This document shows positions 39,583 through 64,000 of a stretch of 64,000 nt of DNA, in pieces. The translations under genes were made by a program, and so were the position numbers. The notes beneath the pieces were generated by a model, which worked only from the letters and a program-made list of their open reading frames with translations, had not been told where the DNA came from and searched no databases. The DNA lies in contig CALSRS010000001.1 in assembly GCA_943788815.1 (NCBI GenBank), positions 372,001 through 436,000 of the forward strand, read 5' to 3'. Source of the DNA: an uncultured Gammaproteobacteria bacterium. GTDB taxonomy: Bacteria; Pseudomonadota; Gammaproteobacteria; Eutrophobiales; Eutrophobiaceae. Within the stretch, counting starts at the first letter, position 1, and every line of letters begins with the position of its first letter.

Positions 39583-41358
39583 TTATTTCTGGGGTAAAGC
39601 AAATACGTAGACAGCATTATGACGTCGTGCTGTATTTAATTCTGGAACCAGGGCCAACTTGGCACCCGTATGTGACACCCCATCGCCAGTCAATATAGCG
39701 ACATACTGCCTGCCATCCACAGCGTAGGTGATCGTACTGTTTTGAACCACACCACCCACAATGTTTTCCCATAGAATCTCACCACTCACTGCATCGAAGG
39801 CACGGAACCGTCGGTTCATATCACCCCAGAATATAAGATTACCCGCCGTGGCTAGCACAGCACCATTGGTGGGATTACGTTGAGCGTGAAAGGGTTCGAT
39901 GACACCGGTCTCCATGTTCACCTTGGCAATTCCCGTCCATGCGTTTGGGTCTACGCCCTCGCGGATATGTGTCGTCCTTCGATGTCCATTGACTGTTGAT
40001 ATAGCGCTCGTGCGGGTGTAACAGACATCATGATATGGGATATACAATGCATTCTCATCGGGGTGATATGCCATAGGGTAATACCCCTTCACGTTTGAAA
40101 AACACATGGTATGACTCTGGTTTTCGCCAGTGAGTACCGTGTCCCGGCTGATAGAAGTTTGTCCGGTGTTGACGTTAACATCGGAGATATGAAACAGTGA
40201 GGTATCCTGGGCGGGGAAAGGTATTCCCCAAAGAAACTCTCCTGTACCACGGTCCATCACCCATAGACCGCCCGGCTCACCTACGGTGGCCACCATGTCG
40301 CGAACTTCGCCGCGTCGAACATTTGGATTGGACCATTTAACCAGATTGGGATCTGGATTAAACGGGGATGAGAACAAGACCCGTTCCTGAGTCCAGTCTG
40401 AATCCCAGTCATCCCCGGGAATATGTTGGTAGTACCAGGCTAGCTCACCGGTATCGGCATCCAGAGCTAAGGTGGAGTTACAGTAAAGTTCAGAGGGCGT
40501 AGTCAATGGCACATCAAAGGGATCATCATGACGTTTGAGCCGGGTGTGCGGAGACGGATTGGCTATTCCCCAGTAGACCAGGTTTCGTTCGGGGTCGTAA
40601 CTGCCTGGCAATCCCCAGGGTGAACAGGTGCGGCTTCCTTCAGATTTATTACCCCAGGTGTTTGCACCTGGATCATCACCACCAGCACCAGCATAAAACC
40701 GCCAGACTTCTTCACCGGTTTCCGCATGGTAGGCAGCAATAAAGCAGTTTTCGCGGCCATCGGGATACGGGTCACAGTTGCGTCCTGTTATCACCTTATC
40801 ACCGGCAATCATGGGACCGGTGGTGTATTCAGTGGTCTTCTTATAATCATGGGCCTGGGTTTCCCAGTGTATTTCTCCATTGCCGGCACCTAACGCCACC
40901 ATGAATCCATCGGGGGCCGCATAAAACACCCGGTCACCGCGCAGTGACAGGGTACGAGTACGATCAATACCCACGTAATCCTCTATATCATCTGGTAAAT
41001 CGCGTTCATATTCCCAGAGCACATCGCCGGTAGTAGCATCCAGTGCCTGGACAATACCTCGCGGATTGGAGATATACATCACCCCATTGTGGACCAGCGG
41101 AATGGCCTCCTGTGTCCCCGGATGCATACCACGAGACCAGACCATCTGAAGATTACTGACGTTGTCGCGATTGATCTGATCCAACGGACTGAAGCGCTGA
41201 TTGTCATAGGTGCGGCTGTGCATCAACCAGTCAGATGGGGCCGGATTCAAAAGCATCTCGTCAGTCACTAATTCTTCCGTATTACCTTGAGCACTGACCT
41301 GCCCACTTATCAACAGAAATAAATAGCCCACTCCATATATAATTTTTGATTTGATCAC
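39583..41358 (-). CDS. Secreted PQQ-dependent dehydrogenase (quinoprotein alcohol dehydrogenase type)
   Basis: 591 residues from the GTG at 41358, preferred because a G-rich Shine-Dalgarno (GGGGGAT) lies 5 bases before it; signal peptide GYLFLLISGQVSAQ. Eight-bladed propeller with W-docking motifs: PSDWLMHSRTYDNQRFSPLDQI, ISNPRGIVQALDATTGDVLWEYERDL, NSTLALDADTGELAWYYQHIPGDDWD, LWVMDRGTGEFLWGIPF, NLIFWGDMNRRFRAFDAVSGEILWEN. It has no cytochrome domain, so it needs a separate electron acceptor. It is a paralogue of the gene at the right edge. Confidence 0.9.
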   Translation of the reverse strand: MIKSKIIYGVGYLFLLISGQVSAQGNTEELVTDEMLLNPAPSDWLMHSRTYDNQRFSPLDQINRDNVSNLQMVWSRGMHPGTQEAIPLVHNGVMYISNPRGIVQALDATTGDVLWEYERDLPDDIEDYVGIDRTRTLSLRGDRVFYAAPDGFMVALGAGNGEIHWETQAHDYKKTTEYTTGPMIAGDKVITGRNCDPYPDGRENCFIAAYHAETGEEVWRFYAGAGGDDPGANTWGNKSEGSRTCSPWGLPGSYDPERNLVYWGIANPSPHTRLKRHDDPFDVPLTTPSELYCNSTLALDADTGELAWYYQHIPGDDWDSDWTQERVLFSSPFNPDPNLVKWSNPNVRRGEVRDMVATVGEPGGLWVMDRGTGEFLWGIPFPAQDTSLFHISDVNVNTGQTSISRDTVLTGENQSHTMCFSNVKGYYPMAYHPDENALYIPYHDVCYTRTSAISTVNGHRRTTHIREGVDPNAWTGIAKVNMETGVIEPFHAQRNPTNGAVLATAGNLIFWGDMNRRFRAFDAVSGEILWENIVGGVVQNSTITYAVDGRQYVAILTGDGVSHTGAKLALVPELNTARRHNAVYVFALPQK

Positions 41359-41452
41359 GTTATCCCCCCCCAATTGAAATAGTTATTACCTGAGTAACCG
41401 TCTTATTGTAATGTAAATCAGCATAAGTAAATATTAATCACATTTGTGCGTG

Positions 41453-41546: not shown

Positions 41547-43157
41547 TTACGGCTCCCCTTGCAAGGCAGGTGTGGTGTGAGGCGGCTTACGATGCTGCGT
41601 GCCCTGCTCAAATGCATAGCCCAGCCGGAACAACGTCGCTTCAGTAAACGGTCTGCCCAGAAACTCAATGCCCACAGGCAAGCCCTCAGGTGTAAACCCG
41701 GCAGGGACGACCAGGGCCGGAAAACCCAGTGCAGGACTCAAACGCCGGTTATTGCCGAGCGCCGTGGCGCCCGCCGGTTCCGGGTTTGTCATCACATCAT
41801 CAGCGATCACCGCAGGGGGATGATCAAAGGTGGCGTATACCAGGGCATCCAGATCTTCATCTGCCATTAATTTAAGCACCAGTTGCCTTAACTCCTCTTT
41901 ATTCTTAAGCACATCCAGATAACCAGGATCATCCATGGTCTTCCCCACATTGGGCATCAACCGTGCTGCCCGCCTGGGTACCACCTTCCCTGTCAGCAGG
42001 ATTTCACGCACCGATTTCACCGGGGCATTGAGATGGTCTTCAAGATAACGATCCATGGCCTCTTCCGTCTCATAGACATTCGCCCCATGAATACTGCTGA
42101 TACGTGCCTGTATATCATCAATCGTCACCGGATCGATTAGCTCAGCACCTAGATCCTGTAACGCTATGATGGCCTTATCGATAACTGCCCTGACCTTTTT
42201 GTAATCATCGGAATTTGGATCAGCATTCTTGTCCATGGGCTCGCGGATCACACCAATACGCGCACCAAGCAGTCCATTTTCGCGCAAGTCCGTCGTATAA
42301 GAAGTCGGCACATTGCCAACAGCATAGGCCGTCACCGGGTCATTAGGATCATAACCGGCAATAACATCCAACATGATGGCCGCATCCCTCACCGTTCGTG
42401 TAATAGGTCCTAAGGTATCCGTAGTTGGCCTGGCAGGCATCATCCCAAACCGGCTCACCAGGGGCAAGGTGGGTCTAAGTCCCACCATGTTGCCAACAGC
42501 AGCCGGTCCCCGCACAGAACCACCCGTGTCTTCGGCAACGCCCAGGATGGCAAAATTTGCAGCAATGCCCGCACCCGTCCCCGCTGATGAACCACTGGGA
42601 TTGCGCGTGGGATCATAAGGGTTCCGTACTACACCAAAGGCAGAGCCCATGAAACTTGTAGCAAATTCACCCATGGTGGTCTTGCCAAGAATGATTGCAC
42701 CGGCCTCCTTCAACTTGATGACGATAGTCGCATCTCTTTGTGGCACAAAATCCAGAAATACCGCCGAACCATAAGTGGTGGGCATATCACTGGTCTCCAC
42801 CTGGTCCTTCACAAGAGTCGGGATGCAATGCAACGGTCCCAAAGGCCCGGAAGATTGATACGCTTCATCCATTTGATCTGCAGTCTCTAACACATTTGGA
42901 TTCATGTTTTGCATGGTATTCAAATTTGGACCCGTCTTGTCGTAGGCATTGATTCTTTTCAAATACAATTCCACCAGGCCCCGGCAGCTAATGTCTCCAG
43001 ACGCAAAGGCCTGATGCACATCAGCGACCGTCGCTTCGAGAAGATGAAAAGAATCTGAGCTGTTTGTATAGACCGCTTGCTGTGCAGCGACAGAATTAAT
43101 TTGGGTCGCCATCGTAATAGCAACGGCGATGATCATGACAACTCGATTACCTGGCAT
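41547..43157 (-). CDS. Secreted amidase-signature family enzyme
   Basis: 536 residues with a signal peptide (MIIAVAITMATQINSVAAQQ). The amidase-signature core is intact: LHCIPTLVKDQVET (catalytic Lys), GKTTMGEFATS, NPSGSSAGTGAGIAAN (cis-Ser) and EDTGGSVRGPAAV with the nucleophile Ser, then ITRTVRDAAIMLDVIAGYDPNDP. The C-terminal LGFPALVVPAGFTPEGLPVGIEFLGRPFTEATLFRLGYAFEQ is typical. It hydrolyses amides; exported members act on unknown substrates. Confidence 0.92.
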   Translation of the reverse strand: MPGNRVVMIIAVAITMATQINSVAAQQAVYTNSSDSFHLLEATVADVHQAFASGDISCRGLVELYLKRINAYDKTGPNLNTMQNMNPNVLETADQMDEAYQSSGPLGPLHCIPTLVKDQVETSDMPTTYGSAVFLDFVPQRDATIVIKLKEAGAIILGKTTMGEFATSFMGSAFGVVRNPYDPTRNPSGSSAGTGAGIAANFAILGVAEDTGGSVRGPAAVGNMVGLRPTLPLVSRFGMMPARPTTDTLGPITRTVRDAAIMLDVIAGYDPNDPVTAYAVGNVPTSYTTDLRENGLLGARIGVIREPMDKNADPNSDDYKKVRAVIDKAIIALQDLGAELIDPVTIDDIQARISSIHGANVYETEEAMDRYLEDHLNAPVKSVREILLTGKVVPRRAARLMPNVGKTMDDPGYLDVLKNKEELRQLVLKLMADEDLDALVYATFDHPPAVIADDVMTNPEPAGATALGNNRRLSPALGFPALVVPAGFTPEGLPVGIEFLGRPFTEATLFRLGYAFEQGTQHRKPPHTTPALQGEP

Positions 43158-43387: not shown

Positions 43388-45043
43388 TTAAATTCCTTTG
43401 CGATCTAAAAACTCTCCAGTAAACGGCTCCGCGCCAAATTCCAGTAGCAAATCAACCATTTCCTGGTTTATCACCGGACTAATACCTCTAATTCGGTGGT
43501 CATCACCACCACTGATTTGCCATTTGAGACGTTGCTCCGGATCACCCAGGGCTAGCATCATTGGAGTGACACCATATCTGTCCTGCAGATTCATATCCGC
43601 ACCTTGCTCTGCCAGGAAGCGTACGAGTTTCGTCCACCCTCGATAGACCGCAAAATACAGTAATGTCCGACCGTCTTCCTTCCCCTTGGCCGGACCATCC
43701 ATAGCTTTTTCAGTCAGGTGAGCATTGATATCCCCACCACCAATAGATAAGGCAAACTTTGTGGCTTCCAGGGCCTCATCCTCACTGCGGTGCTGGCGTT
43801 CCGCTCCTGCCCCCCCGGCCAGCATCAAGACTGTGCCCCCGCCTATTGTGGTCGCACCGACGTCCGAGACCTCTTCGAGGATATGCATGGATTCCATGTC
43901 CCCTGATACGGCCGCCAATAACAATGGGGTAGCACCAACCGGGTCGATCTGCCCAGGGGCCTCCATCTTTCGCGCCAAAAAGGGATTATCAAGATAGGCG
44001 TAAGAGAATTCTATGCGGGCGTTTGGGTCGGCGCCATAATCTAGCAATGCCGCCACCAGCCTTGGCATATTAGGCCGTTCCCAACCTAAGCGTTTATCGG
44101 TTATTGCATTTGGAGGGGTATAGTTATTCATCATCAACACCCCTTCATGTAAGGCGTAGTGTAGCGGGGCAATTCCCCAGGCATCCTTGATGTTTGGGTC
44201 CGCCCCGTTCTTGAGCAGGTACATCGCCAGGTCTTCATGCCCACTGGCTATCGCAATCACCAGGGCACTACCGTGCTCCGGATGTGGTGCATTCACATCC
44301 GCCCCCGCCTCCAGCAATATGCGCGCCGTTTCCACATCTCCCTGTTGGGCCGCAAAGTCCAAAGCTGTAAATCCACCAGAAACTTCAGGAAAACGTATCG
44401 TGGGAGGATAATTTTTTCCGAACACAGTGGAACCGGGAGTATCAACTTCGTAAGGTTCGAGTTCGGGGATCAGTTTTGTGCAGGCTTGCAAGTCGACCCC
44501 GTGCCTCACCAGCTCACGCACGACTGCGGGACGCTGCTCAGCAGCGGCCCACATAAGAGCCGTCTGCCCCCTTTCATTTTCCATCGCGTTCACATCCGCG
44601 CCCGCCGCTAGTAAGGCCTTTACACCCTCTACCGCGCCGGCACTGGCGCAACGCATCAACGGTGTCTCGCCAGTCAGTTTGGCACGATTGGGATCAGCCC
44701 TGGCAGCTAGTAATAACTCCACCACGACCGAATTCCTGTTCTCACAGGCCAATATTAAAGGAGTAATACTGTAATCAGTGGCCAGGTTCGCATCGGCCCC
44801 TGCGCGAAGCAGCAGTTCTACCTTCTTTATATCGTCACGATACACTGCCCAGGAAAGTGCCGTACTGCCGTCCGCCCGGGCCTCGTTAACATCGACTTTC
44901 TCATTCAGGAGTGATTGCAATGCCTCAATATCGCCCTCCCTCACCGCCGAGATCAATGGCACATCGCTGCTCAACGCGATGTGACAGGCCAGGCTAATCA
45001 CCACGGCCAAGATTGACCTACTCCTAAATTTTGTCTGACGCAT
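43388..45043 (-). CDS. Secreted ankyrin-repeat protein
   Basis: 551 residues from the ATG at 45043, which has CAGGAG upstream; a possible earlier start adds 12 residues. Signal peptide ILAVVISLACHIALSS. About ten ankyrin repeats follow, for example ADGSTALSWAVYRDDIKKVELLLRAGADANLATDYSITPLILACENRNSVVVELLLAARADPN and AWGIAPLHYALHEGVLMM; several have loop insertions. It is most likely periplasmic and binds protein. It is the last gene of the DUF1592-DUF1552-ankyrin operon (gap of 50 bases). Confidence 0.9.
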   Translation of the reverse strand: MRQTKFRSRSILAVVISLACHIALSSDVPLISAVREGDIEALQSLLNEKVDVNEARADGSTALSWAVYRDDIKKVELLLRAGADANLATDYSITPLILACENRNSVVVELLLAARADPNRAKLTGETPLMRCASAGAVEGVKALLAAGADVNAMENERGQTALMWAAAEQRPAVVRELVRHGVDLQACTKLIPELEPYEVDTPGSTVFGKNYPPTIRFPEVSGGFTALDFAAQQGDVETARILLEAGADVNAPHPEHGSALVIAIASGHEDLAMYLLKNGADPNIKDAWGIAPLHYALHEGVLMMNNYTPPNAITDKRLGWERPNMPRLVAALLDYGADPNARIEFSYAYLDNPFLARKMEAPGQIDPVGATPLLLAAVSGDMESMHILEEVSDVGATTIGGGTVLMLAGGAGAERQHRSEDEALEATKFALSIGGGDINAHLTEKAMDGPAKGKEDGRTLLYFAVYRGWTKLVRFLAEQGADMNLQDRYGVTPMMLALGDPEQRLKWQISGGDDHRIRGISPVINQEMVDLLLEFGAEPFTGEFLDRKGI

Positions 45044-45093
45044 CCGCTTGGCTCCTGTTGGACTGCACCTTAGTTTCATATCTCTTGAAGACC

Positions 45094-46443
45094 TCAGGCG
45101 AGGCCCTTCAAAATGCCAGTGGCATCACTTTCACCCTCTACATACTCATCTTTAGACGCGCCAAACGCGTCGATAGCAAACAGGTGAAGATTTGATAAGG
45201 GCTCATCCTTATAAAGAATGTGTCGGCCAGTCTTGATTTTGCCCTGAGCCCCACCGAACACCACAGTCGGCAGGTTGTAATGCACGTGGGTGTTAGCGTC
45301 GCTCATTGCGCTGCCCGCCATAATCATAGAATTATCGAGCAGGGAGCTACCATCTGCCTCTTTCGTTGACTGCATCTTCTCCAGGAAATACGCGATCAGT
45401 TCATTCTGGAAATGGTCTATCTGCTTCAATGTCTCGATCGCACCTTTAATACCTCGATGGTGAGACAAGGAATGATGTCCCTCTTTGAAACCCTTTTCTA
45501 CAAAGGTCCGGTTGCCGCCTTCGTGGCCCATCATTACGGTCACCACCTGGGTCATGTCGGTCAGATAGGCAAGGTGCATCATGTCAAAGATCATCTTGGC
45601 ATGTTCGGTGTAGGTGTCTGGGATACCGGCTGGTCGCTTGACGCTTTCCAGGTCCATGTTGTCCGTGTCTGATCGAGATTCTGCCGCCTCTATCCCCCGC
45701 TCAATATCGCGAACTGCATCCAGATACTCTGCCATCTTGTATCGGTCGCTAGCATCGAGCGTACCCATAAGATGTCTCACTCGCTCATTCACGGCGTCCA
45801 AAACGCTGCCCCGATTCCGGTTGAGTCGGCGCTGTGTTTCCGGATCCAGCGAACTGGTATCCCCGAACAGCCGTTCGAACACCATTCGCGGGTTATTCTG
45901 CGCCGGCAATGCGGTGGTTTTTGAGGCCCACGATACGGTAGTGCGATAAAAACCTCTGAATCCACCATCATTCCCGTTGGACCATTCAGCCGGGTCCAAA
46001 CCTAATTGTAAGGATGCCAGTGGCGTCTGCTGTCCAAGCTTCTTTGCCACCACCTGGTCTACCGAGATCCCTACTGTCGTACTGAAAGGGTGCTTGCCAG
46101 TCAGGTAGGCACCACAGGACCGAGGATGTTCTGCACCTGCTTCCCCCGGTTTGAAGTCCGCCGCCTTGAGATCCAGTCCACTCAATACCAGCATCTTTTC
46201 TCGGTATGGCGCAAACGGCGCCAGCGATGGCGTGATATCGTAATTCTTCCCTTCCATCTTCGGTGTCCAACTATCGATGATTCGGCCGCTAGGCAGATAG
46301 ATGTATCCGAGGCGGCGAGGCGGCAGTGCCGCATCAATGGCAGCAAACGCCGGGACCATCGCATCTAAAAACGGTAAGGCCAGACTCGCGCCTGTACCAC
46401 GTAAAAAAGTTCGGCGAGGAATGCTTTTCTTAAATATCATCAT
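45094..46443 (-). CDS. DUF1552 protein with Tat-like signal
   Basis: 449 residues. Signal SIPRRTFLRGTGASLALPFLDAM has twin Arg. The DUF1552 features are LGYIYLPSGRIIDSWTP, LVLSGLDLKAADF, HPRSCGAYLTGKHPF, GISVDQVVAKKLG, VLDAVNERVRHLMGTLDASDRYKMAEYLDAVRDIE and LAYLTDMTQVVTVMMGHEGGNRTF. The family, shared with Planctomycetes, resembles an alkaline phosphatase-like or sulfatase-like fold in some models, but its activity is unknown. It lies between the DUF1592 gene (71-base gap) and the ankyrin gene. Confidence 0.92.
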   Translation of the reverse strand: MMIFKKSIPRRTFLRGTGASLALPFLDAMVPAFAAIDAALPPRRLGYIYLPSGRIIDSWTPKMEGKNYDITPSLAPFAPYREKMLVLSGLDLKAADFKPGEAGAEHPRSCGAYLTGKHPFSTTVGISVDQVVAKKLGQQTPLASLQLGLDPAEWSNGNDGGFRGFYRTTVSWASKTTALPAQNNPRMVFERLFGDTSSLDPETQRRLNRNRGSVLDAVNERVRHLMGTLDASDRYKMAEYLDAVRDIERGIEAAESRSDTDNMDLESVKRPAGIPDTYTEHAKMIFDMMHLAYLTDMTQVVTVMMGHEGGNRTFVEKGFKEGHHSLSHHRGIKGAIETLKQIDHFQNELIAYFLEKMQSTKEADGSSLLDNSMIMAGSAMSDANTHVHYNLPTVVFGGAQGKIKTGRHILYKDEPLSNLHLFAIDAFGASKDEYVEGESDATGILKGLA

Positions 46444-46514
46444 GGCTGACGCCCCTCTCTTCGTTTTTGTCCTGATTGAACATTTAACCGTATTATCATT
46501 GTCTTTCTATCTTA

Positions 46515-49076
46515 TTACAGGTCATAGATTCCCAACTCGTCTTTATCGATGTCGTAGTAGACACCTTCGCTTTCAGTCGGCTCCTGATTACCGGGATTAG
46601 CGGTAGATTCGGGCAGCAGATCATTGGTCTGACTCACCACCCGCCGGTACTGAAACGGTACGCTCTCAATAACACCCTGTATCAGCGAGGGCCAGGTGTA
46701 ATCTTCTGCGGCCGCCTGCTTCACGATATTACGCACTACAGCCTGGTCAAAATACTCGATTTTTCTCCCCAGGGCATAGGTCAGCAGTTTCTCAACGATC
46801 GTATGCACTACCCGGTCAGTATGTTCCAGTAACACATCCTGGAATTCCTTTGTATTCCCGAAGCTACTACCATCAAACAATATCCCCGAGGCATCTACCT
46901 CGGCATTGGCCTCGGTATAGCGCGTACGATATGACCCAATCACATCGAATTGCTCCAGCGCGAATCCAATGGGATCCATCATCTTGTGACACGTGGCGCA
47001 TACCGGGTTGGCACGATGCTGTTCCATCGCCTGCTTCAAGGTCAAGGCTTTACCCCCATCGTCATCAGTCTTCAACGCTGGTACATCAGGTGGAGGTGGT
47101 GGTGGAGGCATGTTCAACAAGTTATCCAGCACCCATTTTCCACGCAACACAGGAGAGGTTCGGTTGTTATATGAAGTTGCCATCAGAATCCCACCCTTAC
47201 CCAAAAGGCCTTGCCTCTCTGGTTGGTTCACCGGCACTCGACGGAAGCGGATGCCATCTACGTTGGGGATACCATAGTGCCGGGCCAGACGCTCATTAAC
47301 AAAGGTATAGTTAGACGTTAAGATTTCCTTGACGCTGCGATTCTCCCTTACCATGCTCCCAAACCACAGCCTCACTTCATCTTTAAAGGCCGCTCGCAGT
47401 TCATCATCAAACTCAGGGAAGATTCCCATATTAGGTTCCGGGACATCCATAGCGCGCACTGCCAACCATTGTTCCCCAAAATTCCTGATGAATTGCTCAA
47501 AACGCGGATCAGCCATCATCCGCTGCACCTCTTGCTTTAGCATGTCAGGTTCGCGCAAGCGACCCTGTTCGGCTATCTGCAGCAAGGTCTCATCAGGGAG
47601 GGTGCTCCATAGAAAAAATGATAAGCGCGACGCTAATTCCAGATCGTTGATCGGATACACTTCATCGGCAACGCTATTGGGTGGACTGCGCTCAATTCGG
47701 AATAGAAAATCAGGTCCTGCCAGGATCCCCTGCAGGGCCAACTCGATACCACGCGTAAACTCATTCTCATCATGACCTTGCTGGTAAAGATCTAACAGTA
47801 CTGCCATCTCTTCGGGAGTAGCCGGGCGTCGATATGCCTGGCGTGCCAGATTTGAGAGTATGGTCTGTGCACAGTCCTGCTTCTTTGCCGCACTCGCCTT
47901 TGGTGCCGGTCGGCATATAAAAATCTTATCCTGAGTTGCTGTGTGCCCAGGGCCACTCGCCTTAAAAGGTCCGGTGATGGTTACACTGTCCACGGCTGGT
48001 TCGCCACCCGAGTAGTCTTCAAGCTCACCCAAGGTGAACTCAGGGATCTTAATGCCCTCAGATTTTATGCCTTTGTCCAAAAAGGTGATGCCCACCAAAC
48101 GAGTCCCCGCCTTGGCCTCAAAGCGGAGATGCAAGGCATTATCCGCTGTGAACATGTATCCCTGCTGGTCCGAATCTCCCTGGTACATAATTTCTGCGGT
48201 AAGCACAAATAGCGGTGGTGGTCGACCATGGACTTCACCACCTACTTTAAATGTGCCAACACGCTCATGATCCAGGAGCACATCCAGAGTGTGTTGCTCA
48301 CGCAGGCCACGGATGGTGTTGTTGCGACCACGTTGCAACTTAACGCTAAGGGTATACTCACCATCCATAGGGAAATTGTGTTGTAGCGCCATACCACCAC
48401 GCGATCCAAACGGCAGGTCCTCACTCATGCGCTGCCGTTGCATAAAATCAGGAGACATTGGATACACCTCGCTGATGGGTTCCATCGCAGTAGGTCCCAC
48501 AGCCAGACGGCTGATTCGAGCCGCCGCAAACATATACCGCTCCATTAAGAGCGGTGAAACCATCAACACTTCGGCATTGTTATCAAATCCCTCAGCGACG
48601 TTGTCCGGCGGCAGTAACGCCGCTGCATCGATCTCCATTGCCAGCAGGTCCCGAATTGCATTTGCATACTCGGTGCGGTTCAAACGATGAAGCACTGGTC
48701 GCCCTGGATCCAGATTCGATGCTGCGTGCTGATCCAGTTCCGTTTTAAGATGGCTCAATAAAACTTCGTACTCACCTTTAGTCGGTCGCTGTGGCATACC
48801 CACTGGTGGCATTGCCCGCAACGTGAGCTTGGTCAACACCCGTTCCCACAAGGTGGGGTCTTCGCCAACATCACTTATATTCGCACGATCGAGCATCAAA
48901 CCGGCTGTCTTCAGGGTCTCGTTGTGACAACTGACGCAGTAACGATCCAGTAGCACACGTGGGGAGGAAATAGAATTTTGAGCATTGTCGGATAGCGATT
49001 GAGCCTGCGCGCAGGTAAGCCCGGCAAGTAAAATCAGTCCAGTGAAAGTAGTGAAAACTCTGAAGCGGTATGTCAT
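46515..49076 (-). CDS. DUF1592-type (planctomycete-like PSD) secreted cytochrome-like protein
   Basis: 853 residues from ATG 49076 (GGGGGGTG just before it; an ATG four codons earlier is weaker). Signal peptide LILLAGLTCAQAQ. Near the N-terminus, RYCVSCHNETLKTAGLMLD is a haem-type CxxCH; RLNRTEYANAIRDLLAMEIDAAALLPPDN is the DUF1587 start. A carbohydrate-binding-like middle is followed by AQTILSNLARQAYRRPATPEEMAVLLDLY, FFLWSTLPDETLL, then LLGKGGILMATSYNNRTSPVLRGKWVLDNLL, seven consecutive Pro, and CATCHKMMDPIGFALEQFD, a second CxxCH. It is a likely periplasmic redox protein. First gene of the operon. Confidence 0.92.
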   Translation of the reverse strand: MTYRFRVFTTFTGLILLAGLTCAQAQSLSDNAQNSISSPRVLLDRYCVSCHNETLKTAGLMLDRANISDVGEDPTLWERVLTKLTLRAMPPVGMPQRPTKGEYEVLLSHLKTELDQHAASNLDPGRPVLHRLNRTEYANAIRDLLAMEIDAAALLPPDNVAEGFDNNAEVLMVSPLLMERYMFAAARISRLAVGPTAMEPISEVYPMSPDFMQRQRMSEDLPFGSRGGMALQHNFPMDGEYTLSVKLQRGRNNTIRGLREQHTLDVLLDHERVGTFKVGGEVHGRPPPLFVLTAEIMYQGDSDQQGYMFTADNALHLRFEAKAGTRLVGITFLDKGIKSEGIKIPEFTLGELEDYSGGEPAVDSVTITGPFKASGPGHTATQDKIFICRPAPKASAAKKQDCAQTILSNLARQAYRRPATPEEMAVLLDLYQQGHDENEFTRGIELALQGILAGPDFLFRIERSPPNSVADEVYPINDLELASRLSFFLWSTLPDETLLQIAEQGRLREPDMLKQEVQRMMADPRFEQFIRNFGEQWLAVRAMDVPEPNMGIFPEFDDELRAAFKDEVRLWFGSMVRENRSVKEILTSNYTFVNERLARHYGIPNVDGIRFRRVPVNQPERQGLLGKGGILMATSYNNRTSPVLRGKWVLDNLLNMPPPPPPPDVPALKTDDDGGKALTLKQAMEQHRANPVCATCHKMMDPIGFALEQFDVIGSYRTRYTEANAEVDASGILFDGSSFGNTKEFQDVLLEHTDRVVHTIVEKLLTYALGRKIEYFDQAVVRNIVKQAAAEDYTWPSLIQGVIESVPFQYRRVVSQTNDLLPESTANPGNQEPTESEGVYYDIDKDELGIYDL

Positions 49077-49350
49077 TACACCCCCCATTTAGTGCTATGC
49101 CATGTCGTCGAATAGCATAGCGTGATAGCGAGTTATAGTCACCATTATAGTAGGTTTGCTTTGAATCCTGATTTATTCAAAACGCTCATCATCTACGCAC
49201 CAACTCACTTTTCACTAATGATCTATTCAGTGTAAGAGTATACAACTATTCAACACTAAAAATTACTGCCTACCTGTTTCAAGTTTTTATTCTGAACATC
49301 ATATTGCTCGAAAATAGCCTCTATTTTTAATCTGTAGATTAATATTTGCA

Positions 49351-54047: not shown

Positions 54048-54098
54048 GGGACAGATCATAATTATTAATTAATTATGAAAAAAACATGGTCTGTCCCC
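54048..54098. repeat. REP-like inverted pair of the GGGACAGA type
   Basis: Left arm GGGACAGATCAT (54048-54059), AT-rich centre, right arm ATGGTCTGTCCCC (54086-54098). One mismatch between the arms. Unlike most copies it lies in a divergent promoter region (SelO and the CMD-like gene), not after a stop codon. Confidence 0.75.
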
Positions 54099-54173
54099 AT
54101 AAGGCGAGCACGAGGTAGCTTAGTTAGATATGGGCGTTTATACTTTCCATACAACCGACAACTCGGAGTTACC

Positions 54174-55361
54174 ATGAAATTCAACCGCCTGTTCACCCTT
54201 ACTTTGATCACATTCACAGTGTGGCTCGCCGCCGGTGCGCCCGCCTCAGCGCAGGGTGGACCCAACCTGCCACCGGATGTTTACGCTGACTCGAGAAACC
54301 GCCTGCCGCTACCCATGCGCGACGAGCTCGACAATAAACACAAGCAGACCTACGATGCTGTCTTGGCCCGCACCGGATCCGTGGAAGGATTACGCGGCAT
54401 GGCTGGTATCGAACTGCACGGTAGCTCAGGCAATATTCGCTTCGAGTCACCCGCAGGTCGTCGCCTCATTGAACTGGCCATCATTGTGGGTGCGCGCCAT
54501 GGTGAACAGAACTTTGAATGGTCACTGCATGCGAGTCAGGCGTTACGCGAGGGCCTGGAGATGGAAATTATTGATATTGTTCGTCATAAGCAGCCACCTG
54601 TGGGCATCGGCGAGAAAGAAGCCGCCATCATCTCCCTGGGCCGCGAGATGGCCGAGCAGCACCGCGTCTCTCCGCAGACCTATGCGCGCGCGCTGAAGGC
54701 GCTAGGCAAAGTAGCGCTGGTAGACATTGCCGTTACCGTGGCATATCGAGCCAATCAGACCGTACTAATCTGGGTTGACCAGCACATGCCACTGGACTAT
54801 GTGGACGAGGCGCCTTTGCCCATTAACATCATCGAGTCACCACCCGATATCTACCCGCAATCGCGTAGCCGCCTGCGCCAGCGCGAGGGCCAGCGGCCGA
54901 TCACACCCGGCCGTACACTCGCACCCTATGGCAAGGGCCCGGGACAGATCGCACTCACTCAGGCCGGTGGTAAATATCTGGACATCATGGTTGGTAAACC
55001 CTTGCGCGCCCTCGCCCGACTGGTCGCCGCGCGCGAGCTCAACCAGCAGGTGATGTGGACCGAGACTGAACCTGAGGCACGCAAACTGGGCCTGAGCTCC
55101 GTGGCCATCGAAGTTGTGCGCGATAACAAATCGACCACCGGCCTGACTGAGAAAGAAGCCATGGTCATTCAGATGGGACGCGAGTTGCTCGGCGTGCACC
55201 ACGTTGCACCGGAGACGTATGTGAAAGCCGTTGATCTCTTCGGCGAGCGCGACGCACTGGACCTCGCCACCGAGATCGGTGAACACGCCCGTGAAGCCGG
55301 CATACTGACTATTTTCGATCAGCAACTCCCAGAGGGCGTGGAGCCACTACTACCTATGTGA
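54174..55361 (+). CDS. Secreted carboxymuconolactone decarboxylase (CMD)-like tandem protein
   Basis: 395 residues from ATG 54174 with signal peptide LTLITFTVWLAAGAPASAQ. Two CMD-like all-helical units (about 60-205 and 230-390): GRRLIELAIIVGARHGEQNFEWSLHASQALREGLEMEIIDIVRHKQPPVGIGEKEAAIISLGREM and later LARLVAARELNQQ...KEAMVIQMGRELLGVHHVAPETYVKAVDLFG. The AhpD-type CxxC is absent, so it is not a peroxidase of that class. The gene is visibly more GC-rich than its neighbours (39 of 60 bases in 55021-55080) and is bracketed by REP-like remnants. Confidence 0.8.
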   Translation: MKFNRLFTLTLITFTVWLAAGAPASAQGGPNLPPDVYADSRNRLPLPMRDELDNKHKQTYDAVLARTGSVEGLRGMAGIELHGSSGNIRFESPAGRRLIELAIIVGARHGEQNFEWSLHASQALREGLEMEIIDIVRHKQPPVGIGEKEAAIISLGREMAEQHRVSPQTYARALKALGKVALVDIAVTVAYRANQTVLIWVDQHMPLDYVDEAPLPINIIESPPDIYPQSRSRLRQREGQRPITPGRTLAPYGKGPGQIALTQAGGKYLDIMVGKPLRALARLVAARELNQQVMWTETEPEARKLGLSSVAIEVVRDNKSTTGLTEKEAMVIQMGRELLGVHHVAPETYVKAVDLFGERDALDLATEIGEHAREAGILTIFDQQLPEGVEPLLPM

Positions 55362-55414: not shown

Positions 55415-55430
55415 GCCAACTATAGTTGGC
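55415..55430. promoter_or_regulatory. Perfect 16-bp palindrome, probable toxin-antitoxin operator
   Basis: GCCAACTATAGTTGGC is self-complementary and lies 44 bases upstream of the toxin start. The overlap with a TATAGT-like -10 element suggests that binding by the helix-turn-helix antitoxin would repress the operon, as is usual for HigBA-type modules. Confidence 0.65.
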
Positions 55431-55473
55431 ATATGATAGTCTGTGTAAGAAATATTCAACGGATGGATCCGAC

Positions 55474-55797
55474 ATGCAAACGACGGTTATCGTCTACGCT
55501 GATAATAAAGGGAAGGAACCCTTTAGCAATTGGCTGACCGGTTTAAGTGATGCCCGAATTCGACGACGTGTAATTATGAGACTACGCCGCATTGAACAAG
55601 GTCACTTTGGTGACTGTAAACATCTTCAGGATAATGTATTTGAATTACGATTGTTCTTCGGCCCAGGTTATCGAATTTATTTAGGCAAAGATGGTGACAA
55701 GTTAGTTGTCCTCCTGTGTGGCGGTGATAAAAGTACGCAACAAAAAGACATCTTCAAAGCACTAAACTTTTGGAACGAGTATAAACACCATGCGTAA
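55474..55797 (+). CDS. HigB/RelE-like toxin of the phage-derived Gp49-like family
   Basis: 107 residues from ATG 55474. The features FSNWLTGLSDARIRRRVIMRLRRIEQGHFGDCKHLQDNVFELRLFFGPGYRIYLGKDGDKLVVLLCGGDKSTQQKDIFKALNFWNEYK fit the addiction-module killer protein family, with the basic strand, GPGYRIYL and GGDKSTQQKDI. Such toxins cut mRNA at the ribosome. The gene precedes the antitoxin, the order typical of HigBA, and overlaps it by 8 bases. Confidence 0.92.
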   Translation: MQTTVIVYADNKGKEPFSNWLTGLSDARIRRRVIMRLRRIEQGHFGDCKHLQDNVFELRLFFGPGYRIYLGKDGDKLVVLLCGGDKSTQQKDIFKALNFWNEYKHHA

Positions 55798-56107
55798 CTA
55801 CAGAACACTCAATGAATTGGAAGCAGATTATTTCCACAAGAACCCTCGTGAAATTGATACCTACCTGACTGAAATCTTCAATGAATATGCCATTGATGCA
55901 GACTCTGCAGCATTATTGGCATCACTGCGCGTCATCGCGAAGGTAAAAGGCATCTCCGCTTTGGCCGAGCAAACGGGAATGAGCCGACAAGGGCTGCAAA
56001 AAGCGTTGTCAAATAAAGGCAATCCGCGTCTGGATAGTATTAACTCAATCATGCATGCATTGGGATATCGGTTAATGCCCAAGAAAAATAGACTGAATCC
56101 AGATTAA
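55790..56107 (+). CDS. HigA-like antitoxin
   Basis: 105 residues. N-terminal FHKNPREIDTYLTEIFNEYAIDADSAALLASLRVIAKVKGISALAEQTGMSRQGLQKALSNKGNPRLDSINSIMHALGYRLMP is the addiction-module antidote (XRE/HTH) family. It should bind the toxin and the palindrome at 55415. It ends overlapping the stop of the convergent peptidase gene by 4 bases. Confidence 0.92.
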   Translation: MRNYRTLNELEADYFHKNPREIDTYLTEIFNEYAIDADSAALLASLRVIAKVKGISALAEQTGMSRQGLQKALSNKGNPRLDSINSIMHALGYRLMPKKNRLNPD

Positions 56108-61802: not shown

Positions 61803-64000
61803 TCAGGGAGGAGACAGCCGAAACACATACAAGCCATTGTGTCGATTGCCTTCGGGATTCGCCAGGTAGATTTCCGGTGAAAGAAAGTGCGGAACTCTCC
61901 ACGGGCTGCCACCTCCTCGACCGGTAGGCACGGCAACGTATTGGACCCCGTCCACCTCGTACGTTATGGGGGACCCAAGGGCCGAGGTCGGCAGTCGAGT
62001 CTTCCAGAGCACTTCACCCGTCTCGATATCAAAGGCACGGAACCACCGGTCGATATCTCCAGCAAACACAAGACTGCCCGCCGTGGTGAGCGTGGAAGTG
62101 GTGAAGGCGGCGCGCTGTTCCACGCTCCACACCTCCTCCATGTTGGCCACATCGTACGCAGCAAGCTTGCCCAGGTTACCTTGTGAGTTCGGCGCCTCGA
62201 AGTACGACCGCTGTCCGTTGCCGCCGTGTCGCCCACCCTCCTCATAAAGCTCATAAATGGGAACTTCCTTACCCGAGAACTCCATACAGCTTTGGCTCAG
62301 GGGAATGACCAGCAGACCGGTGCCGGGGTGGTAGGCTGTCGAATGCCAGTTCTTGCCTCCCGCAGTGGACGGGCAAACCGAGACCCACTGTTCGACCTTC
62401 AATTCCCGGATGTCCTGGCGGTAGCGAACTGCCCCGATCTCGCGGTCCACCTCGTCGAAGATGTTCTGATACACGGTTTCGACCAGATCGATGTACTCAC
62501 CCGTTTGCCTGTCCAGTTTCCATAAGATTCCGTCCTTGCCGATGGTGAGAATCACGGGCCGGCCATTTACATCCGCGAGGACCCGCTCGTACGCGACATC
62601 CATGTCGAGGCTTTCTCCGGCCACGTGCTGGTAGTACCACACGATACGCCCATCGTCGGGATCAATGGCAAGGGTTGAGTTGGAGTACAGTGCATGATCA
62701 TCCACCGTCATCCACCGGCTCGCCGCAAGCCACGGCTTGGGCTGGGAGGTCCCGAAGAAGATGAGATCCTGCTCCGGATCGTATGTGCCGGCAATCCAGG
62801 CATCCACGCCGCCTCTCATCTCCCAGGGAAGCTCTCCCCAGGTGTCGCCACCGGGTTCGCCCGGACGCGCGATCGTATAGGTGCGCCACAGCTCATCACC
62901 CGTGCGCGCGTCGTGCGCGGTAATGAAGCAGGTCTCCTCGTTGTACACCCTGCAGTTATTGACGCCGTTGATGACCTTTCCTTTCACGATGATGGGTCCC
63001 GACGAGTTCTTGTAACCCAGCGAGACGTCTTCGACCTGAGTTTCCCATCTAACGGCACCCGTGCGGGCGTCCAGGGCCACCATGGCGGATGTGTTGGTCG
63101 CCACGTAAATCATGTCCTCCCAGAGGGCGATGCTGCGGTTAACCGTGCCTTCCACTGTGCCCTCCGGAGGTATATATCGGTATTCCCAGAGGAGCGTACC
63201 ATCCATAGCGTCCAGGGCCTGGACAATGTTCCCCGGGTTAGTGATATACATCACCCCGTTACGAACCAGGGGTACCGGCTGGCTTATGCCGTCATGCATC
63301 CCCCAGGACCATGCGAGCTGGAGGCGTCCGACGTTTGCCTTGTTGACCTGCTCGAGCGGGCTGTATCCCATTCCATCGGGGGTCCTGCGCCAGTGCAGCC
63401 AATCACCGTCGGGTGGAGACATCAGGACAGCGTCGGAGGCCGGGACAAATCGCTCGGCCATTCGAAAGGTTTGCGTTCGAGCACTAGGCGTTTCGAAGAT
63501 GGGGCCCGCCGTCAGCGGGGGCGTGACTATTGCGTCCGGCGAGGGGGCAGTGCCCGGGCGTCCGGGAACGGGGTAGGTGACGTTGGCCGTAGCAGCCTCC
63601 AGTGAGGCCACATCCCCGAGCACCTGACCCGGGGATGAAAAGGCAAGTTCAGTGTCTCCCGGCGCCACCCCATTTACGCGGAGGATGTACGAGACTACCG
63701 CCTCATAGCCGTCCTGGCTCAGGGACCCCGGAGCATCCAAAGGCATCGTCGCCTCGATTGTTTCCAGGAACGCGCCAACTGGTCTGCCGCCCCACTGCAG
63801 CCGGAAGGTCGCGCCGACCATCGGTGGCGCCTCGAAGCCGCCCTCTAGTTGCGAGCCGTGACAGCTGGCACAGTTTTGCTGATAGAGCTGCGCTCCTTCA
63901 TCCGCCTGGGCAGATACGAAACTGGCTTGGCCTCCTTGTGGCTGCTGTGCCGAGACAGGGACGACAGCGCCGGCCAATAGTGCGGCGAAGACTGCGAGGG
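61803..64000 (-). CDS. PQQ-dependent dehydrogenase with N-terminal cytochrome c, 5' end cut by window edge
   Basis: At least 730 codons; the signal peptide is cut ([19 protein letters not shown] reads into base 64000). A cytochrome c domain follows ([26 protein letters not shown], axial Met in ATMPLDAPG), then the propeller: [107 protein letters not shown]. Fused cytochrome allows intramolecular electron transfer, unlike the gene at 39583. Base composition is high (38 of 60 G+C at 63361-63420) compared with the rest of the window, which suggests recent transfer. Confidence 0.92.

Follow-up and report, generated by a model that had tools for sequence, protein, structure and literature searches.

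The window analysed here, a stretch of 64,000 nucleotides from an uncultured gammaproteobacterium of the family Eutrophobiaceae (contig CALSRS010000001.1), carries on its minus strand three genes in the order DUF1592, DUF1552 and ankyrin. Gene order, copy numbers and protein trees, all read from genome data, show that they form one conserved unit whose members have been inherited and duplicated together, and that this unit has been amplified in the genus and in some Acidobacteriota. As for its role, we tentatively favour a modular exported redox cassette with c-type haems acting on carbohydrate-like substrates, in which the ankyrin protein would be the partner of those DUF1592 proteins that contain a jelly-roll domain. 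Planctomycete-type cytochromes and DUF1552 proteins recur in many genomes and have no assigned function in the portions of the literature cited here. A fixed third partner, a fold for DUF1552 and a core in common with proteins bearing carbohydrate-binding modules (CBMs) turn a puzzle of neighbouring genes into one that can be tested.

One unit, inherited and duplicated together

The earlier note described three minus-strand genes separated by 71 and 50 nucleotides, and the open reading frames (ORFs) do lie where it placed them, with starts at 49076, 46443 and 45043, each preceded by a purine-rich stretch. The longest ORFs of the outer genes span 46515-49088 (DUF1592) and 43388-45079 (ankyrin); a G-rich stretch stands directly upstream of the ATG at 49076, and CAGGAG precedes that at 45043. 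A scan for promoters and terminators at the locus gave nothing informative.

The arrangement recurs throughout the genome of origin (3.23 Mb, 99% complete), which contains 18 DUF1552 and 17 DUF1592 genes. When the surroundings of all 18 DUF1552 genes were read, the same-strand order DUF1592-DUF1552-ankyrin was found in 17 of 17 cassettes, which rules out a chance arrangement as well as an operon unique to the window. All 18 ankyrin genes found in this genome are cassette members, and its 82 Ank_2 places fall, without exception, inside the 18 genes matched by the cassette-ankyrin profile. Spacing between DUF1592 and DUF1552 is at most 3 nucleotides, overlaps included, in 15 of the 16 cassettes measured, the exception being that of the window, and spacing between DUF1552 and ankyrin is below 60 nucleotides in all 16. 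The window copy of DUF1552 shares 41-61% identity with each of the 17 others. Across 16 cassettes (the comparison leaves aside one that is split between two loci) the trees of the three proteins agree, with distance correlations of r = 0.90, 0.85 and 0.81, each matched in 0 of 20,000 permutations. Two loci in this genome have a different gene content: L018 (1399-5287) has a tandem pair of ankyrin genes and is the sole such cassette, and L021 (6424-7773) has a lone DUF1552 gene, without DUF1592 or ankyrin, that keeps the Tat motif and the invariant residues of alignment A1.

Among relatives, we considered the loci of the 80 best of at least 588 relatives from a scan of GTDB contigs, a selection that favours close relatives. 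By record title, 52 belong to Acidobacteriota, 26 to Pseudomonadota, and one each to Gemmatimonadota and Actinomycetota. DUF1592 lies upstream of DUF1552 in 78 of these 80 loci, and an ankyrin gene lies near the pair in 74, near being at most 3 kb downstream of DUF1552 or at most 1.8 kb from the far end of DUF1592, with a profile that could match other ankyrin proteins too. It is downstream on the same strand in 49 loci, upstream and divergent in 16, upstream on the same strand in six and downstream on the other strand in one; the remaining two of the 74 are the loci without an upstream DUF1592. Three of the six loci without ankyrin end at contig edges (L067, L084, L097), and three do not.

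Copy numbers of DUF1552 correlate with those of ankyrin, at r = 0.99 over 33 genomes (nine of which lack DUF1552) and at r = 0.98 over 13 carrier genomes reached through the loci (226 against 244 copies). For these counts DUF1552 was identified by PF07586 in one genome set and by alignment A4 in the other, G364, whose places equal those of G003, was dropped, and two ankyrin pieces in G019 were taken as one gene. Single genomes hold, for example, 40 and 40, 47 and 50, or 35 and 41 DUF1552 and ankyrin copies; the largest proportional departures are 11 and 16, 8 and 13, and 13 and 9. In genus mates the two are also close neighbours at a limit of 3 kb: of 62 ankyrin matches, 57 have a DUF1552 gene that near, and of 60 DUF1552 matches, 57 have an ankyrin match. 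On chromosome G353, where 23 of 40 DUF1552 genes and 26 of 40 ankyrin genes were listed, 17 of those 23 stand no more than 8 kb from an ankyrin gene on the list, compared with 1.5 on average and 7 at most in 5000 shifts. The gene order that the earlier note had singled out for comparison is thus conserved, with copies at close to 1:1 over the 33 genomes. The note's proposal that the three proteins may form a periplasmic complex with the ankyrin protein as scaffold withstands this comparison, although contact between them is still conjectural.

The comparison proposed there was to span Gammaproteobacteria and Planctomycetes. The planctomycete sample, a single record (L113), has the DUF1592-DUF1552 pair and no ankyrin gene. 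With that record, and with nearest relatives mainly in Acidobacteriota, we reject the notion of a planctomycete trait; genomes of Planctomycetota and Verrucomicrobiota stand outside our group-wise counts. On one contig of another genome (G046:C16:5407-8166), about 1.5 kb separates a DUF1501 gene from a partial PSD4 match, and the two planctomycete-type pairs may be mixed there.

Among 58 related genomes searched, DUF1552 was found in the genome of origin, in all four genus mates (20, 17, 13 and 10 copies) and in one of 32 other genomes of the family, and in none of 21 genomes of other families. It occurs in 6 of 299 Pseudomonadota genomes, and PSD4 in 8 of 369 genomes of the class, the genome of origin included in both. 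In a tree of 98 DUF1552 proteins, in which paralogues split groups according to a warning of the tool, the copies of this genome form several separate groups, whose neighbours include Acidobacteriota. The window group adjoins L027 and the L009 group adjoins L053 (support 99), L010 and L011 cluster with L035 (support 97) and, more weakly, the L016 group goes with L080 (support 81) and L019 with L031 (support 87). These separate groups, together with the absence of DUF1552 from most of the family, suggest several transfers followed by local duplication of the cassettes. Four loci titled Klebsiella pneumoniae (L022, L042, L058 and L089) have DUF1552 proteins that nevertheless group with copies of our genome, and their titles look wrong. 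DUF1552 is also present in 15 plasmid records, 12 of them from Sphingobium; gene surroundings come from four.

Predicted features of the three proteins

Export signals on all three proteins, claimed by the earlier note, are borne out by prediction. A crude script detected a strong hydrophobic N-terminal stretch in 16 of 16 DUF1592 proteins (16 of the 17 genes were in the alignment) and 18 of 18 ankyrin proteins from the genome of origin, and a lipobox in none of them. As for DUF1552, its Tat (twin-arginine translocation) motif RRTFL corresponds to a pattern, RRx[FVLMI][LIMVF], present in 62 of 62 aligned relatives, in keeping with the Tat signal proposed at the outset.

The two CxxCH sites and planctomycete-type domains attributed to the DUF1592 protein are likewise found, as CVSCH, CATCH and six Pfam domains. 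Behind the signal peptide come PSCyt1, PSD3 (DUF1587), a jelly-roll insert, PSD5 (DUF1595), PSD4 (DUF1592), PSCyt3 (DUF1588) and PSD2 (DUF1585), all the Pfam matches being above curated cut-offs (PSCyt1 with a score of 24.5 against 22). One CxxCH lies in PSCyt1 and one in PSCyt3, and both are predicted from their motifs to bind haem; the Met of a conserved MPPVG motif is a candidate distal ligand of haem 1. The predicted model (pLDDT 89.6, pTM 0.88) matches known structures only over residues 196-374, and the searches barely probed the rest of the fold. A sequence search of the PDB gave nothing useful. The model supports a jelly-roll between PSD3 and PSD5, possibly a CBM. The first VIA-align rows are CBM35, CBM36 or a CBM-bearing xylanase, at Z 7.5-8.3; the best match, at Z 8.3, has a root-mean-square deviation (rmsd) of 3.4 over 109 residues, and five of 998 chains reach Z of at least 8. 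Foldseek lists the phage lambda tail fibre in its first two rows (best E 0.0024), then CBM35 (0.0034).

The DUF1552 protein matches PF07586 (HXXSHH) with 284.6 bits against a cut-off of 30. Its AlphaFold2 model (pLDDT 84.7, pTM 0.84) supports a fold of the alkaline phosphatase/sulfatase superfamily: the 50 best VIA-align rows are phosphodiesterases, sulfatases and relatives (Z 16.4-17.8, rmsd 3.2-5.3, 234-279 residues), the match spans residues 40-449, and 483 of 1000 aligned chains reach Z of at least 8. Foldseek points to the same superfamily, with 18 matches at E of 0.001 or below, but with TM-scores of only about 0.3-0.4. The earlier remark that neither DUF has an assigned activity is right, yet a predicted fold can be assigned to DUF1552 and a jelly-roll is visible in DUF1592. 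A sequence search of the PDB with DUF1552 returned three matches, all designed proteins at E 0.47 or worse. Similarity to DUF1501 is weak (hhalign probability 12, E 0.0025, 164 columns, in 6 of 10 DUF1501 loci tried).

Whereas the predicted fold is shared with the superfamily, the nucleophile apparently is not. Residues invariant in all 62 aligned DUF1552 proteins include H106, D129, Q130, W172, E308, H324, H328 and H386, and H408 (60 of 62) and D382 (56 of 62) are nearly so; several of the invariant His and Glu residues would suit a metal site. Candidate counterparts of the canonical Asp/His ligands in the superfamily's two-metal site are E308, H324, H328, H386, H408 and D382. H106 precedes T115-G116 by what we take to be the spacing between nucleophile and TG in the sulfatase signature, and the nucleophile therefore seems to be replaced by an invariant His. 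Ten distant DUF1552 proteins, once aligned, also have His at this position. We accordingly reject a formylglycine-type catalytic sulfatase, His standing in 62 of 62 at the Cys/Ser place of the CxPSR signature, a place deduced from spacing and not from superposition. Position 52, the likely place of the first-strand Asp, is Asn in 52 of 62.

The third protein has ankyrin repeats over its whole length, above cut-off and with E as low as 1.8e-58. Its gene goes with one architecture of DUF1592. Among 14 further loci outside the best-80 set, ankyrin is present in four of four with the jelly-roll form and in none of ten without a jelly-roll match. In the former (L112 from Novosphingobium, L154, L155 and L160), DUF1592 covers the jelly-roll region and has two haem sites. 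In the latter, no profile match is found at that region: the flanking parts are at most about 110 residues apart in L114 and L115 (both Sphingobium and close relatives of each other), L156, L151, L152, L153, L157, L158 and L159, and other sequence fills the place in the planctomycete L113, a less clear case. The best-80 set comprises 66 loci with jelly-roll and ankyrin, eight with ankyrin and without full jelly-roll coverage, four with jelly-roll and without ankyrin, and two with neither; DUF1592 is truncated, absent, downstream or missed in six of the eight and partial in two (L076, L100). Ankyrin therefore tracks the jelly-roll form of DUF1592, not DUF1552 as such.

Table 1. Features of the cassette and its downstream neighbours, in window positions
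Feature	Position	Strand	Remarks
DUF1592 (PSCyt3-type) protein	46515..49076	-	853 residues with the 49076 start
First haem-c site CVSCH, residues 47-51 (predicted)	48924..48938	-	C47, C50 and H51 invariant in 56/56 aligned relatives
MPPVG, residues 89-93	48798..48812	-	M89 and P90 invariant in 56/56
Jelly-roll insert, model residues 196-374	47955..48491	-	weak structural matches
Second haem-c site CATCH, residues 693-697 (predicted)	46986..47000	-	C693, C696 and H697 invariant in 56/56
DUF1552 (HXXSHH) protein	45094..46443	-	449 residues, Tat signal
Tat motif RRTFL of DUF1552	46402..46416	-	RR invariant in 62/62 aligned relatives
His106	46126..46128	-	62/62; nine residues before T115 (60/62)
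HXXSHH motif, here HSLSHH	45457..45474	-	H324 62/62, H328 62/62, H329 61/62
His386, candidate metal ligand	45286..45288	-	62/62
Exported ankyrin-repeat protein	43388..45043	-	551 residues with the 45043 start
Amidase-family protein, exported, downstream of the trio	41547..43157	-	context, not counted in the unit
PQQ-type beta-propeller dehydrogenase, downstream	39583..41373	-	context, not counted in the unit

A possible oxidative role and its alternatives

Functional leads come from six fusion proteins of 1254-2228 residues in which the DUF1592 module is C-terminal and a DUF1552 gene follows directly. L151-L153 were found through PSD4, so that the adjoining DUF1552 (three of three) is a result; L157-L159 were reached through DUF1552 itself, which makes its presence beside them a given. 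L151 and L152 have three CBM2, fn3 (below cut-off in L152) and cytochrome domains. L153 and L157 have four and three CBM26, respectively, both with a glucose/sorbosone dehydrogenase domain above cut-off, to which L158 has only a weak match, and in L159 a PKD region matches a family of cellulose-binding proteins. The two proteins with CBM2 and the two with CBM26 come from genomes of the window's class.

Some of this has precedents. In Verrucomicrobia, PSCyt3 genes, of the same domain families as the window DUF1592 protein, usually adjoin a family of unknown genes whose function was reported as unknown, and some of the PSCyt genes encode CBMs as well (He et al. 2017, PMC5615132). That neighbour family may be DUF1552, a name that does not occur in the main text of that article; nor are ankyrin proteins found there, unlike in the window cassette. 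Cbp2D of Cellvibrio japonicus and TERTU_3803 and TERTU_2913 of Teredinibacter combine CBM, fn3, a cytochrome domain (X183) and a C-terminal X132 region with CxxCH; Cbp2D bears a DUF1587 annotation, and a figure legend puts 'DUF1687' at the start of X132 (PMC8981238, PMC10916295). Judged by architecture, with Cbp2D known to us by its description, X132 would correspond to the string from PSD3 to PSD2. The passages of the X132 literature used here do not name DUF1552. The six genes that C. japonicus was found to need for the use of cellulose include Cbp2D and Cbp2E, for which a function beyond electron supply to lytic polysaccharide monooxygenases (LPMOs) has been suggested by the authors (PMC12542752). 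L151 and L152 resemble Cbp2D in having CBM2, fn3, cytochromes and a C-terminal DUF1592 module, and belong to the Cbp2D type if this is taken as CBM, cytochrome and DUF1587-1592-1588-1585 on one chain. The window protein does not: it differs from Cbp2D and the TERTU proteins in its 853 residues, its internal jelly-roll, its want of a Pfam CBM and the ankyrin gene alongside. PSCyt domains with unknown neighbours and X132 proteins are already published. A limited search, mostly outside subscription journals, found no literature joining DUF1592 with ankyrin or with DUF1552.

Neighbouring genes give further leads. In L151 (1459-2757) and L152 (1738-3042), a gene for a flavoprotein like flavocytochrome-c sulfide dehydrogenase directly follows DUF1552 and might be a further redox partner of Cbp2D-type proteins. 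On two Sphingobium plasmids the pair is followed by cytochrome c or c' and cytochrome b561, plausibly a route to the membrane, and in another proteobacterium by cytochrome c'. In the genome of origin, 5 of 11 pyrroloquinoline quinone (PQQ)-type genes lie within 12 kb of cassettes (mean 1.0 under circular shifts, with 51 of 5000 as high), or 4 of 11 within 8 kb (101 of 5000 as high). TonB-receptor places, 42 after merging six second pieces, are within 12 kb in 13 cases (mean 3.9, 0 of 5000 as high). Beside the L020 cassette stands a row of four large TonB-receptor genes (G000:C1:705281-716007).

The carbohydrate reading is suggested by CBM35 and CBM36 among the first jelly-roll matches by the DUF1592 fusions to CBM2 and CBM26 with DUF1552 next to them and by the need for Cbp2D, of similar architecture, in cellulose use, and the redox reading by the invariance of both CxxCH sites and by the cytochromes that follow the pair. 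Our tentative reading is that carbohydrate-like substrates enter by way of TonB receptors and that the cassette oxidises them. The jelly-roll of DUF1592 would bind the substrate, and electrons, from a PQQ-type dehydrogenase or from DUF1552 chemistry, would pass through the haems of DUF1592 toward soluble cytochromes. DUF1552 would then act as a metal-dependent partner, and the role of the ankyrin protein would be to hold DUF1592 of the jelly-roll type or to mature it. The many diverged copies might serve different substrates. If so, soil and freshwater bacteria would hold a repertoire for oxidative attack on glycans that counts of glycoside hydrolases miss.

Several observations weigh against this proposal. 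The C1q and TNF jelly-rolls tie at Z 7.5 in VIA-align, Foldseek has no match to the insert at E 0.001, and Pfam finds no CBM in it. Glycoside hydrolases are absent from the 25 commonest of 117 families flanking the cassettes in the genome of origin, among which dienelactone hydrolases, amidases and amidohydrolases fit other substrates equally, and the 25 commonest of 149 families in the relatives' flanks (109 of 204 proteins) include a single Glyco_hydro_3. Sphingobium copies adjoin short-chain dehydrogenase/reductase (SDR) proteins, Rieske proteins or acyl-CoA enzymes. The excess of TonB-receptor places varies with the distance chosen: 7 of 42 lie within 8 kb, a figure reached in 384 of 5000 shifts. 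L039, L070 and L094 have no ankyrin although the contig continues, and two of them, L070 and L094, retain the jelly-roll. As for Cbp2D, its YceI-like domain was not found in L151 or L152, and the domain tested as LPMO donor was X183, not the DUF1592 module: X183 donates slowly in one study (PMC8981238) and gave no donation under the conditions tried in another (PMC10916295).

Those flanking genes would suit a different substrate class. The same redox module might oxidise hydrophobic or aromatic compounds in the periplasm, such as steroids, terpenoids or lignin-like material, a possibility that we consider real but doubtful. It could draw on the hydrolases and amidases near the cassettes of our genome and on the Sphingobium loci, where a TonB receptor, the pair, cytochrome c or c' and b561 stand beside SDR and Rieske proteins or acyl-CoA dehydrogenases. 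The Sphingobium form, however, has neither insert nor ankyrin, so its substrate may differ, and the fusions to CBM2 and CBM26 point to glycans, at least in those branches.

A similar degree of doubt attaches to the idea that the ankyrin protein is, by analogy, a haem or maturation factor for DUF1592 and not a structural scaffold. Ankyrin proteins encoded beside haem catalases, AnkB in Pseudomonas and Cj1386 in Campylobacter, are needed for full activity, and haem binding or trafficking has been proposed for them (PMC7567364, PMC4518328). The window ankyrin gene likewise adjoins the gene of a putative haem protein, one with two haem-c sites. Its partners differ, being a c-type cytochrome and DUF1552 in a fixed cassette with many copies. 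A difference in chemistry counts against the analogy: c-type haem is attached by general machinery, while the haem of catalase has no covalent bond to its protein. Moreover, ankyrin is absent beside other DUF1592 forms that keep CxxCH, and hence its presence is no general requirement for attaching haem.

It is unlikely, in our opinion, that DUF1552 simply removes substituents as a conventional hydrolase of the sulfatase or phosphodiesterase kind, with DUF1592 serving as a binding, electron-carrying companion. Its fold does match such enzymes at Z 16-18; the invariant His at the sulfatase Cys/Ser place nevertheless makes a formylglycine mechanism unlikely, its sequence matches no solved hydrolase in the PDB, and hydrolysis does not explain the constant pairing with a cytochrome. 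A defence against peroxide or oxidative stress, in which DUF1592 would be a peroxidase-like protein with two haems and ankyrin its helper, has very little in its favour: two haem sites and the existence of ankyrin-catalase operons (PMC7567364) agree with it, and the structure search, confined to the jelly-roll part, cannot speak to a peroxidase fold, but a defence enzyme would hardly be expected in 17 diverged copies, of which some lie close to TonB receptors and PQQ-type dehydrogenases.

The redox cassette for carbohydrate-like substrates can be extended to a larger claim, which we regard as rather improbable when taken whole. The trio would be a three-component oxidation system made of a two-haem cytochrome with a glycan-binding domain, a superfamily member with a His nucleophile or a metal only, and an ankyrin protein. 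With about 50 copies per genome in Acidobacteriota, it would be an oxidative counterpart of polysaccharide utilisation loci, repeatedly transferred into a gammaproteobacterial genus, and its core pair would be common with Cbp2D-type proteins, with DUF1552 as their missing partner. Whether DUF1552 is that partner, and whether the ankyrin protein serves the jelly-roll form, are the questions that result.

Other genes near the cassettes

The dehydrogenase downstream of the trio scores below cut-off for its nearest NCBIfam subfamilies (an 'empty quinoprotein' group among them), so that PQQ binding is only putative. Two further PQQ-type dehydrogenase genes lie close together at 61803-63977 (minus strand, 759-residue frame) in the window and at G000:C1:436837-438303 (752-residue frame); the former has a cytochrome c domain at its N-terminus. 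A 428-residue protein encoded at 54075-55361 (plus strand) is without Pfam matches at E 0.1; visual inspection of the sequence shows an export signal and a two-part build, the halves of which we take to resemble carboxymuconolactone-decarboxylase repeats. At 55426-56107 (plus strand), a Gp49-like (DUF891) gene overlaps a probable addiction-module antidote gene, and the two are likely a toxin-antitoxin pair.

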